33,298 bases of DNA from Candidatus Caribbeanibacter nitroreducens (lineage in GTDB: Bacteria > Gemmatimonadota > Gemmatimonadetes > Palauibacterales > Palauibacteraceae), in contig CANPVF010000036.1 in NCBI GenBank assembly GCA_947581645.1, positions 1 to 33,298 on the forward strand, given 5' to 3'. Below, one piece after another: positions 1-8,230 of the stretch; the stretch's first letter is position 1, and each line of letters opens with the position of its first letter. The notes beneath the pieces were generated by a model that did no database searches, was not told where the DNA came from, and worked only from the letters and a program-made list of their open reading frames with translations. The position numbers were made by a program, and so were the translations under genes.

Positions 1-97
1 CCTGCGTGCGACTCCCCACGGCTTCTCGCAGCTGACCACGTCCTTCTTCGCCGGCCTGTGCCTAGGCATCCACCGTGCGCCCTTACCTTGCTTGATC
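1..97 (-). rRNA. rrl: 23S ribosomal RNA, 5' end (partial)
   Basis: Read on the minus strand, 97 to 1 begins GATCAAGCAAGG and continues through GCGCACGGTGGATGCC, the conserved start of bacterial 23S rRNA (E. coli has GGTTAAGCGAC...CACGGTGGATGCC). It then follows the first conserved helices (GAAGGACGTGG, GCTGCGAGAAGCC). Only about 97 nt lie in the window; the rest continues past the left edge. The 5' end at 97 is estimated by alignment to the E. coli start. Unusually, no 16S rRNA gene or tRNA-Ile/tRNA-Ala spacer precedes it: the next upstream gene on this strand is protein-coding (519-1208), and a separate promoter and boxA-like site lie between. Confidence 0.93.
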
Positions 98-316
98 CCT
101 CCCGAGCTTCCCTCGCCCCACGCCCACGACCCCATCACGGCAGCCGCGAACCGGGACATCGTCAGGAATCACTCAGGATCGGGATCGATCCAGAACACAC
201 ATACTCCCACTTCTCTCTCAGACGCCTCTCTCGGCTCGACTCTCACAACAACAAAAATACCCACTACACACACACTCGACGAACGACCCGCTCCGGGCCG
301 CTCGCCCACTCCGAAT

Positions 317-327
317 TGTGAAATAGC
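317..327 (-). promoter_or_regulatory. boxA-like rRNA antitermination element
   Basis: The minus strand reads GCTATTTCACA, matching the bacterial rRNA boxA core GCTCTTTNACA at all but one specified position. It lies about 50 nt downstream of the predicted start of transcription and about 220 nt before the 23S 5' end, the leader position where boxA recruits NusB-NusE for antitermination. It is one of few A/T-rich patches nearby. The assignment rests on motif and position only. Confidence 0.6.
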
Positions 328-380
328 TGAGGCCGACCGGTCCGGGCACGGTGGCCCGGGTTCCGTTCGGCGGGCCGGCG

Positions 381-409
381 AACCTACTCCGCGAGCCGGG
401 ACGAGTCAA
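381..409 (-). promoter_or_regulatory. Predicted sigma-70 promoter of the 23S unit
   Basis: On the minus strand a -35 hexamer TTGACT (409-404) is separated by exactly 17 nt from a -10 hexamer TAGGTT (386-381), with transcription expected to start near 374. It lies after the stop codon of the 519-1208 gene and before the boxA-like site and the 23S gene, so it would drive the 23S independently. In a region otherwise almost all G/C, a near-consensus -35 with ideal spacing is a good signal, but it has not been tested. Confidence 0.6.
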
Positions 410-518: not shown

Positions 519-1204
519 TCAGAAGGTCAGGCCGGCTCCCGCCGTGAAGTCGCGTCCCATGGTGAAGCCGACCCGGATGCTCCACTCGTCGTTGAACTGG
601 AAGTCGGCGCCGAAGTCCAGGTCCATCCGGACGTCGGTCTCGTCCTCGGCACCGCCCGGACCCGGGCTGTCCTCGCGGAACAGGAAGTCCAGCGCCAGCC
701 GGGGATACAGGTAGGGCGTGACCGTCAGGCTCTCCGCCTCGATCCGCCGGCCGAAGATCAGCCCCAGGGGCACGCGCACGGCCGCCCGGTCCAGCTCGGG
801 CACGGCGCTGGCCCCGATCCCGGTGGCCCAGGAGACGTCCAGCGGAAACTCCTCGTAGGCGGACACCAGCTCGTTCTTCAGGTCCAGGCCGGCGGAGACC
901 CCGACCTCGTCCTCACCGAAGGGCCGCTCCACGTTGGCGATCCCGAGCCGGAGGCCCAGGTCCACGTACTCGCCGGCGGTACGCCACGTACCGACGGCCC
1001 CCACGGCCTCCATGTCCTGGGGGAAGGTGACGTACATGCCGTAGCCGTCCTCCCCGCCCGGCAGGTGGAAGGAGGGGACGTCCCACTCCGGGGACACCTG
1101 CGCCGCCGCGGCCCCGGGGAGGGCCAGCAGGGCGGCGGCCACGGCCGCCAGCGCCCCGGCGTGGAGGAGCCCGGCTCCCGACGAACGGTCCGCCGCCCGG
1201 TCGT

Positions 1205-1208
<4 letters not shown>
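519..1208 (-). CDS. Secreted beta-barrel-like protein of unknown function
   Basis: A 229-residue protein not recognised as a named family. Residues 1-37 form a typical signal peptide: an Arg-containing start, an Ala/Leu core and an AAAAQ cleavage region. The rest alternates polar and hydrophobic residues in short runs separated by acidic turns (for example VGVSAGLDLKNEL, LTVTPYLYPRLALDFLF, IRVGFTMGRDF) and ends in Phe (GAGLTF), the usual C-terminal signature of outer-membrane beta-barrels. An 8 to 10 strand barrel or porin-like protein is the best guess. Its ATG overlaps the atpC stop codon by 4 nt (ATGA), so it is probably translated from the end of the ATP synthase mRNA. A periplasmic beta-rich protein is the alternative. 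Confidence 0.75.
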
Positions 1209-5623
<4,415 letters not shown>

Positions 5624-5644
5624 GATGCCTCGGTGTGGTGTCCT

Positions 5645-6235
5645 TTATGTGTTCGTGCTCTGCGCGCCCCCGGCCGCGGCCCCGGCAGCCGAATCGCCGG
5701 AGTCCAGCAGGCGGCGCTGCAGGTTCTGCAGGCGGCGCCGGAGGGAGCCGTCCATGACCTTGTCCTCGAAGCGGACCAGGATCCCGCCGACGATGTCCTC
5801 GTCCGTCCGGAAGTTGGCCTCGACCTGGCGGTCCAGGAGCGACGAGAGCCGCTCGGTGATCTCCTCCCGGAGCTCGTCGTCGGGCTCCAGGGCCAGCGTC
5901 ACGTTGGCGTGCACCCGGCCGAAGCGCTCGTCCAGCAGGTCCCGGTAGGCCTCCTCGATGCGCGGAATGGAGCGCTGCCGCCGCTTGTCGAGGACCACCA
6001 GGAGGAAGTGGAGGAAGGGCTCCGGAACGCGGTCCGCGAGCACCTCTCGCAGGACCTCCTTCTTCCGACCCTCCGGGACGCGAGGGGTGTCCAGGAAGAG
6101 CCGGAACTGCCCCTCCTCGCGGTAGAGGCTCGCCAGCTCGGCCAGGTACTCTCCGTACGCCTCGGCGGCGTCCCGGCGCGTGGCCAGCTCCAGCAGGGCG
6201 CCGGCGTAGTTCTCGCCGACCGCGGTCTCGCTCAT
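5645..6235 (-). CDS. atpH: ATP synthase subunit delta
   Basis: Delta subunit (196 residues), which fastens the peripheral stalk to the top of F1. It starts MSETAVGENYAGALLELA, like the helical N-terminal domain of the family (NYAxAL near the start), and has FLHFLLVVLDKRR near residue 75 and the C-terminal signature DEDIVGGILVRFEDKVMDGSLRRRLQNL. Its ATG overlaps the atpF stop codon (ATGA at 6232-6235), pointing to coupled translation. A short Ala/Gly tail (GDSAAGAAAGGAQSTNT) is additional. Confidence 0.95.
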   Translation of the reverse strand: MSETAVGENYAGALLELATRRDAAEAYGEYLAELASLYREEGQFRLFLDTPRVPEGRKKEVLREVLADRVPEPFLHFLLVVLDKRRQRSIPRIEEAYRDLLDERFGRVHANVTLALEPDDELREEITERLSSLLDRQVEANFRTDEDIVGGILVRFEDKVMDGSLRRRLQNLQRRLLDSGDSAAGAAAGGAQSTNT

Positions 6236-6816
6236 CCGACCCGGTCGATGTAATCGCGCACCAGGCGCCGGTTCTCCTCACGGTCCATCTCGGACCGCAT
6301 CAGGCGCTCGGCGGCGGAGATGGCCACCTCGACGGCCTCCTGCCGGATCTCGCTGCGGAGCTTCTCGCGCTCGCGCTCCATCTCGCGGCGCGTCCGCTCC
6401 ATCATCTCCTCCCGCTCCTCGCGGGCCTCCTGCAGGATCTCCTCGCGGAGCCGCTCGCCGGCCTCCCGGCCCTCCTGCAGGATCTCCTGCGCCTCCTGGC
6501 GGGCCTTCTCCAGCTGGCGCTGGTGCTCCTCCAGCAGGCGGCGCGCCTCCTCCCGGTCCTCCCGGGCGGAGTCGATGGCCGACTGGATCTTCCTGCGACG
6601 CTCCTCGAGGCTCCCCGAGATCATCGGGAAGACCTTCCACGCCAGGATGCCCAGCGTGACGAGGAAGATGACCCAGGTCCAGACCACCAGACCCAGGTCC
6701 ACGGAGAAGATGGGGCTCCCCCCGCCCTCCTGGGCCAGCGCCGGATCGGCGGCGGCCAGCAGGACCAGCAGGACCGGCCCGGCCGCCGCGGCGATTCGTC
6801 GTGTCAGTGCTCTCAT
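6232..6816 (-). CDS. atpF: ATP synthase Fo subunit b
   Basis: Subunit b, the peripheral-stalk stator (194 residues). It has a hydrophobic N-terminus ending PALAQEGG, which looks like a cleavable signal peptide (1 to about 29), then a single membrane segment (about 42-62, LGLVVWTWVIFLVTLGILAW) and a long, highly charged coiled coil (about 70-180) rich in Glu, Arg and Gln. E. coli b lacks a signal peptide, but such a presequence is known in other bacterial phyla. It lies 5 nt after atpE and overlaps atpH. Only one b-type gene is present, so b is probably a homodimer. Confidence 0.95.
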   Translation of the reverse strand: MRALTRRIAAAAGPVLLVLLAAADPALAQEGGGSPIFSVDLGLVVWTWVIFLVTLGILAWKVFPMISGSLEERRRKIQSAIDSAREDREEARRLLEEHQRQLEKARQEAQEILQEGREAGERLREEILQEAREEREEMMERTRREMEREREKLRSEIRQEAVEVAISAAERLMRSEMDREENRRLVRDYIDRVG

Positions 6817-6821
6817 CTCAT

Positions 6822-7082
6822 CTACTTGATGAAGCCGGCGATGATCAGCCCGAAGAAGGCCACGCCCTCGATGAGGGCGGCGAGGATGATCGCCGCGGTC
6901 TGGATCTGTCCGGCGGCCTCGGGCTGGCGGGCCATGGCCTCGGTCATCTGTTCGCCGATGCGGCCGATCCCGATGCCGGCGCCGATGACCACGGCGCCTG
7001 CGCCGAGGATGGCCAGACCTGCGCCGATGTCACCGGTCAGCCCCGTCGCGCCCTGCTGGAGAAGTGCGAGCATGTTCAGCAT
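6822..7082 (-). CDS. atpE: ATP synthase Fo subunit c
   Basis: Subunit c, the ring-forming proteolipid (86 residues). Two transmembrane hairpin helices surround the polar loop MARQPEAAG (about 50-58). The ion-binding carboxylate is Glu72 in ALIEGVAFF. The Gln of the first helix and the ES/T...Y pattern that mark sodium-binding c-rings are replaced (GIGIG and EGVAFF), so proton coupling is predicted. The first helix carries the Gly/Ala-rich packing motif GAGAVVIGAGIGIG. The N-terminus MLNMLALLQQGATG is short; initiation at Met4 is possible. Confidence 0.97.
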   Translation of the reverse strand: MLNMLALLQQGATGLTGDIGAGLAILGAGAVVIGAGIGIGRIGEQMTEAMARQPEAAGQIQTAAIILAALIEGVAFFGLIIAGFIK

Positions 7083-7207
7083 GGGTCCCTGTCTCCCCTG
7101 TTCGTGTCGTGTTGATGGTCGTCCGATCGATTCGTCGTCCGTCCCCGCCGCCGGCGGCGCGCGGAGAGCGGTGGGGTGCCCGGAGCGGTCTCAGCCCGGA
7201 CGATCCG

Positions 7208-8230
7208 TCAATGTCCGTGTCGGATCAGCCCGATGAACACCGCGGTGAGCACCGTGAAGATGTAGGCGTGGAGGAAGGCCACGAAGATCTCGAGGAACAT
7301 GATGAACAGCCCCAGGACCAGCGCGCCGGCGATGGTCGTGATCCCCGTGGCGGCCGTGAAGCTCCCGTAGGTGATGATGAGGCCGAGCATGGCCAGGAGC
7401 ACGAAGTGTCCCGCGCTCATGTTGGCGTACAGCCGGACGGCCAGGGCGAAGGGCTTCGTCAGCTTCCCCAGCAGCTCCACCGGCGGCATGATGATCGCCA
7501 TCATGCCCTTCATCACCGGATGGAGGTCCTCCGGGATGGCGAAGATCGTCTTCGCGTATCCCTTCGGCCCCAGGGCGACGAAGCCGGCGTACTCGATCAC
7601 CAGCAGCGAGATGAAGGCCAGCGCCCCCGTGACCATGATGCTGGACGTGGCCGTGGCCCCGAAGGGCAGCAGGCCCAGCAGATTCGCGTACAGGATGAAG
7701 AAGAAGAGCGTCACCACGAAGGGCACGAAGCGCTCGCCGCCCTCGCCGATGTTCGAGAGGGCCACGTCGTCGCGCAGGAAGAAGTAGAAGGCCTCGAAGG
7801 CGTTCAGCACTCCCCCCGGCGCCTCTTCCCCCTGCTGCATGTCGCGGGCCTTCGCGGCCGCGTACCAGACGGTGACGATCGTGAGGATCGCCGCCAGGAA
7901 CAGGAAGACGATGTACTTGCTGATCGAGAGGTCGACGGCCAGCGGGCCCAGCTGCAGCGGGTCGAAGGCCAGGGCGTGGAGGTCGATGGTGGCGAACCCC
8001 AGGTCGATGGACTGGGAGTCCGTCACGTGATGGATCATCGTCTCCGTGCCCCACCCCTCGGCGTGGCCGGCCCCGTGGCCGGCGGCCTCCTGCGCCCCGT
8101 GGGCGGCCTCGGCGGCCTGTCCCCCGGCGTGCTGCGCCTCCTGCGCGGAGGACTCCGTGCCGTGCCCGGCCTCCTGTCCGCCGAGGGCGGCGGCGAGGCC
8201 GTTCCATGCTGTGAGAAGGAGCGGTGACAT
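7208..8230 (-). CDS. atpB: ATP synthase Fo subunit a
   Basis: Subunit a, the proton channel facing the c-ring (340 residues). The essential arginine is Arg266 in FALAVRLYANMSAGH, the most conserved stretch of the family. Hydrophobic helices begin near residue 104 and continue to the C-terminus (FLHAYIFTVLTAVFIGL). The first about 65 residues form a long hydrophilic extension rich in Ala, Gly, His and Glu (repeated AGHG/EAAHG-like units) preceded by a short hydrophobic start, so a cleaved signal and a periplasmic His-rich extension are possible. It lies 39 nt after the atpI-like gene, and a 125-nt gap separates it from atpE. Confidence 0.96.
   Translation of the reverse strand: MSPLLLTAWNGLAAALGGQEAGHGTESSAQEAQHAGGQAAEAAHGAQEAAGHGAGHAEGWGTETMIHHVTDSQSIDLGFATIDLHALAFDPLQLGPLAVDLSISKYIVFLFLAAILTIVTVWYAAAKARDMQQGEEAPGGVLNAFEAFYFFLRDDVALSNIGEGGERFVPFVVTLFFFILYANLLGLLPFGATATSSIMVTGALAFISLLVIEYAGFVALGPKGYAKTIFAIPEDLHPVMKGMMAIIMPPVELLGKLTKPFALAVRLYANMSAGHFVLLAMLGLIITYGSFTAATGITTIAGALVLGLFIMFLEIFVAFLHAYIFTVLTAVFIGLIRHGH

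Follow-up and report, generated by a model that had tools for sequence, protein, structure and literature searches.

Unlinked 16S and 23S-5S genes are described in passages of PMC7761764 and PMC8172020. The unlinked systems of Buchnera, Wolbachia, Helicobacter, Pirellula and CPR bacteria resemble the locus studied here in that 16S lies in one unit and 23S-5S in another. Compared with them, the present locus is kept behind atpC across several families, and its promoter can be separated from an apparently inherited boxA by comparison with linked relatives. Thermus thermophilus has a separate 23S-5S operon with its own promoter. That operon belongs to another phylum and has other neighbors.

Among linked operons, the leader of Escherichia coli rrnB (P2-boxB-boxA) has the same order of promoter, hairpin, boxA and rRNA, and the 16S-23S spacer of rrnB carries a hairpin and a TGCTCTTTAAAA boxA 120 nt before 23S. 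A hairpin and boxA ahead of 23S are shared with the solo 23S leaders described below. Unlike here, 16S and 23S are linked in rrnB, with tRNA-Glu between them, and the part of the spacer inspected after the tRNA has no visible TTGAC-TAxxxT promoter, in contrast to most solo leaders. In the standard model, established for E. coli, boxA loads NusB-S10 and the rRNA antitermination complex. According to a passage of PMC10250234, boxB-boxA-boxC sets occur twice, once where the operon begins and once ahead of 23S.

For Gemmatimonadota, PMC11237797 speaks in part of its text of rRNA operons in cultured members. We found no description of unlinked rRNA genes in this phylum in the literature searched, outside of which lies the survey of Brewer et al. 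2020. Unlinked rRNA genes are an already known kind of arrangement, and the locus presented here is a well-defined new case of it; its conserved position at the atp operon, the clear distinction between a boxA that was inherited and a promoter that was acquired, and a relative in a mixed state (G001) are new as far as our searches show.

The window analyzed is the whole 33,298-nt contig C36 of G000, the source genome, a draft of 2.96 Mb in 199 contigs; labels such as f1 and g7 stand for provisional family and genus groups. Very probably, the lineage has unlinked rRNA genes and the window carries the 5' part of a 23S-5S unit that is transcribed separately, from its own promoter and with its own hairpin and boxA, 16S being located elsewhere under the same module.

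Organization of the 23S leader

The features of the window are collected in Table 1. As the preliminary description had stated, the 23S 5' end is preceded by protein genes, an outer-membrane-type ORF and then the atp operon, and the promoter hexamers and boxA do follow one another in the right order and on the right strand. A boxA downstream of promoter-like hexamers and ahead of 23S is the layout of an antitermination leader. The 23S end shows 84 to 88% identity to the 23S 5' ends of near relatives, and the 18-nt hairpin between -10 and boxA has counterparts at the same place in relatives. ORFs weakly similar to the outer-membrane-type ORF lie behind atpC in the f1 genera g2 and g5, in f5 and in f3/f4 genomes. 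The window AtpG is 54% identical to that of two MAGs labeled Gemmatimonas sp., the only near relatives retrieved from the public genome collection by atp similarity, the next best matches being at ca. 40%. The organism therefore probably belongs to Gemmatimonadota. In these two MAGs, atpC is followed by an OMP-like ORF, and a 23S match is absent from the stretch examined.

Table 1 Coordinates of the features found in the window
Feature	Position	Strand	Evidence or remark
23S rRNA 5' end	1..97	-	Rfam RF02541 (LSU_rRNA_bacteria), 58.1 bits, model 1-96; cut at 3' by contig start
Pre-23S leader, boxA to 23S	98..316	-	Sequence; trailer partner lies outside the contig
boxA-like element GCTATTTCACA	317..327	-	boxA at equivalent place in relatives' solo leaders and linked spacers
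Hairpin CCGGGC-CACCGT-GCCCGG, between -10 and boxA (boxB-like position)	342..359	-	Fold of the stretch from -10 to boxA
-10-like hexamer TAGGTT (TAxxxT class)	381..386	-	TAxxxT lies 15-17 nt from -35 in most solo leaders
-35-like hexamer TTGACT	404..409	-	17 nt from TAGGTT
Outer-membrane-type ORF, last gene ahead of 23S promoter	519..1208	-	Open reading frame
atpC-atpD-atpG-atpA-atpH-atpF-atpE-atpB, co-directional with 23S	1205..8230	-	ORFs; as queries, they match orthologues in the same order in relatives

The promoter had been called near-consensus. Its elements and the 17-nt spacer are in place and the -35 matches the consensus at 5 of 6 positions, but with 3 of 6 in the -10 (8 of 12 in total) this grading was too strong, and a simple promoter scanner that needs 9 of 12 reports none at TTGACT/TAGGTT. 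Measured against E. coli, this -10 is weak, and the scanner misses the promoter; the case for it rests on comparison with relatives. For this comparison, an ordered module was defined as TTGAC and TAxxxT separated by 15 to 17 nt and followed, after 15 to 130 nt, by a boxA with up to 2 mismatches to GCTnTTTGACA. The 420-nt leader of the window contains it, as did none of 300 dinucleotide shuffles. Over the whole 33 kb, the promoter pattern (spacer of 15 to 18) occurs twice and boxA (up to 1 mismatch) once, the two coming together only at the 23S leader. The window boxA has C at a position where relatives have G.

No 16S gene was found within the 33 kb upstream of the window 23S. Since the 16S of G000 is nowhere in the assembly, the earlier statement that no 16S is linked to this 23S stands for this copy, over 33 kb, and does not extend to the rest of the genome. 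Rfam models reported neither 16S nor 23S in the G000 contigs, despite the presence of the 97-nt 23S end, whose escape indicates that this search misses short rRNA ends. When G000 was searched with DNA combining 16S and spacer, the known 23S end was the only match, with no 16S fragment and no second 23S. The tRNA-His/ychF place was located on contig C106 with no 16S adjoining. Locating all 16S and 23S genes in the genome, which had been proposed as a check, yielded one 23S end and no 16S.

Conservation of the locus in family f1

Family f1 comprises 35 genomes, including G000, and a 23S 5' end was detected in 24 of them. In 22 of these 24, atpC precedes 23S on the same strand; the other two are G028, with a solo 23S among other neighbors, and G007, in which only a linked copy was seen. 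Matches to atpC were obtained in 6 of 12 further f1 genomes searched. Promoter and boxA are present behind atpC in G006, G015, G019 and G021, with no 23S match before the contig end, while the G016 contig stops soon after atpC and G017 has no 23S match in the 9.1 kb downstream of atpC.

The 16S gene of f1 is found behind tRNA-His, with ychF beyond tRNA-His in several genera, and ahead of era in G030, G009 and others. In G030, it is era and not 23S that follows 16S, and both rRNAs are interior to their contigs. Along similar lines, 16S and 23S are apart in genera g4 and g7, with no linked copy seen. Relatives, which share the locus and the ordered elements and have 16S elsewhere, bear out the notion that this 23S is unlinked and has a promoter and boxA of its own.

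Distribution across the phylum

In a phylum sample of 297 genomes, 16S 3' ends were matched in 102 and 23S 5' ends in 113. Both ends were matched in 84 genomes, 48 of them linked (23S no more than 3 kb after 16S) and 36 with the genes apart, among which are 7 from f4 where contig breaks, and not true unlinking, may be the cause. Families f3 and f4 are mostly linked, and separate genes occur in f1, f5, f6 (part), f7 and f9. Four f3/f4 genomes (G066, G116, G268 and G280) have at least 7 kb after 16S without a 23S match.

We fetched 20 stretches around 23S genes that were unjoined to 16S by coordinates. In 14 of them atpC lies upstream of 23S (four from f5, eight from f6, one from f7, plus G133), and the atp-23S locus recurs in three families beyond f1. 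Four genomes (G050, G123, G198 and G256) have a solo 23S without atpC upstream, and the stretches of G188 and G210 are too short to tell. The G133 stretch (L313, G133:C39) is an f1-like atpC-23S contig inside an f3 bin, probably a binning error. The 20 fetched 16S 3' flanks, 19 of which run at least 2.9 kb and one ca. 0.6 kb, gave no 23S match; nor did 15 other genomes (11 with linked 23S, 4 with solo 23S elsewhere), each represented by one stretch behind atpC, in the 1.6 to 5.4 kb fetched.

On the 23S gene tree, the solo or linked label changed 4 times in a first run, which had a long G102 branch, and 5 times in a rerun with G102 cut to 553 nt, G294 dropped for its long branch and G133 dropped because its 23S, from an f3 bin, is f1-like. 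This tree does not separate dual-copy ancestry from relocation, as gene conversion may act between the copies of one genome.

Promoter and boxA in solo leaders, linked spacers, and 16S leaders

The same promoter-boxA layout had been suggested as something to look for before 23S in related genomes. We recovered the ordered module from 36 of the 41 solo 23S leaders, against 0.01 expected from shuffles over all 41, a set whose members are not independent, many coming from genus g7. The five leaders without the strict pattern are those of G001, G002 and G004, whose spacer is 18 nt, of G028, whose -10 lacks the TA, and of G023, whose boxA stands in a different register.

Linked 23S genes gave a different picture. 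None of their 22 spacers has the promoter pattern, whereas all 22 have a boxA match, sensibly placed in 21 and located at the start of an 827-nt spacer in G294; in five of these spacers (G052, G076, G115, G172 and G220) no 23S start motif was located, so that they were truncated at a set length of 400 nt and include some 23S. The same promoter-boxA module stands in 14 of 14 16S leaders (scanned with a spacer of 15 to 18 and up to 1 mismatch in boxA). With boxA in every linked spacer and the promoter in none, the boxA of solo 23S genes is most readily interpreted as spacer sequence that was inherited, and the promoter as an acquired addition of the solo state. Of the promoter-boxA-23S architecture, which had been put forward as worth recording, the boxA proves ordinary given the E. 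coli rrnB spacer and the linked spacers; the promoter is the notable part.

The 23S-5S unit and its processing stem

The preliminary description had 23S transcribed on its own, which does not agree with the relatives: 5S follows 23S in all 13 complete solo units, 6 of 6 in g7 and 7 of 7 in f5, f6 and f9, so that these units are 23S-5S. In g7, 58 to 59 pairs can form between the 23S-5S spacer and the sequence immediately downstream of boxA, above all 100 shuffled trailers in each of 3 units. The one f9 unit has 38 leader-trailer pairs versus a maximum of 36 in 100 shuffles. The pairing did not exceed shuffles in 7 of the 11 units, most of which have a long leader or spacer; the shuffling was crude, and the test carries conviction for g7 and f9 only.

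A search for RNase III (TIGR02191) detected none in the 35 f1 genomes, G000 included, and was positive in 9 of 14 controls. The genomes covered were those of f1 and the controls, so that the non-detection may reflect the phylum as a whole or the search itself. It agrees with a passage of PMC7761764 that, citing Brewer et al., reports fewer RNase III genes in unlinked taxa.

Alternative explanations

Given that 23S and the atp genes are co-directional, 23S could in effect be the last cistron of the atp operon, with read-through making most of the 23S and the TTGAC/TAxxxT match being of minor weight. The minus strand of the window has no terminator-like site between 97 and 519, and in 10 of the 14 g7 leaders measured the -35 begins 24 to 27 nt past the atpC stop, a distance too short to accommodate an intrinsic terminator. 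The promoter is nevertheless kept where the gap to atpC reaches 0.3 to 2.9 kb, where atp is 1.2 to 3.5 kb off and in the four genomes named above whose solo 23S is not near atp, and the same module precedes 16S. We thus find it quite unlikely that the atp promoter makes most of the 23S, although the short distances in g7 indicate that read-through may add transcripts. An assembly artefact, that is, a chimeric join of an atp contig with a 23S end, can hardly account for the locus. The contig does stop inside 23S, a usual trouble spot in assembly, and the genome is a fragmented draft, but the same junction is found in 22 f1 genomes and in other families, in some cases deep within contigs with a full 23S-5S downstream.

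It is also possible, if rather unlikely, that the window 23S is a second copy and that G000 has in addition a normal 16S-23S-5S operon, lost in binning. A window that stops inside 23S would allow for this, as would the linked copy of G007, which belongs to a sister genus. A further precedent would be G001, where one contig reads atp-OMP-23S and another 16S-23S with a 168-nt spacer. The ends of these contigs share exactly 127 nt, which is what a single assembly path common to two copies would produce, and there are 2 differences in the last 200 positions, which span boxA into 23S. Two copies that exchange sequence and so stay alike would account for this state, as could a bin made up of two strains. 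Against a second copy in G000, neither a 16S fragment nor a second 23S turned up there, and g4 and g7 keep the two genes separate with no linked copy. A more elaborate history, which we regard as improbable, would start from an ancestor that had a 16S-23S operon and, where its atp operon ends, a solo 23S-5S as well; its 23S copies would have exchanged sequence from boxA on, and one or the other would have been lost per lineage. The solo unit would then be fed by its own promoter-boxA together with atp read-through, and its precursor, with a stem of more than 50 pairs, would be released without canonical RNase III.

Proposed functioning of the unit

For a separate 23S-5S unit in an unlinked lineage, the reading that we prefer, the following sequence of events can be envisaged. 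Transcription of a leader RNA would begin near 374 from a sigma70-type promoter (TTGACT-17-TAGGTT). This RNA may fold the hairpin and expose boxA, and boxA would load NusB-S10 and the rRNA antitermination complex. The antiterminated polymerase could then cross ca. 3 kb of untranslated 23S, and then 5S, without Rho termination. From boxA onward, the leader would be former 16S-23S spacer and would give the 5' strand of the 23S processing stem, the 3' strand being provided by the 23S-5S spacer; this putative leader-trailer stem would frame processing. With 16S elsewhere under the same promoter-hairpin-boxA module, both rRNAs might be kept in step. The start site, Nus binding and the co-regulation of 16S and 23S are inferred.

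A 23S gene out of the operon would thus appear to keep the spacer boxA and, where clearly tested, the processing stem, and to gain a promoter. The presence of linked and unlinked relatives in one phylum offers a natural test of how the arrangement changes, of the balance between 16S and 23S output and of whether unlinking goes with RNase III loss. Unlinked 23S genes also affect methods that amplify or assemble across 16S-23S.

Other features of rRNA genes in relatives

On C1, the single contig of G009, pieces are joined by 100-N runs, which leaves the rRNA pieces at scattered coordinates. A second, divergent 23S after tRNA-Ala, with no 16S in the stretch, is present in G034 (L171, G034:C15) and is either contamination or a second rRNA unit. 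The 3' half of the G017 23S (L230:2567-5668) takes up ca. 3.1 kb for ca. 1.5 kb of the model, indicating a large insertion, and the 23S of G030 (L175:14666-15330) is interrupted by a group I intron (Rfam RF00028, 59.2 bits).
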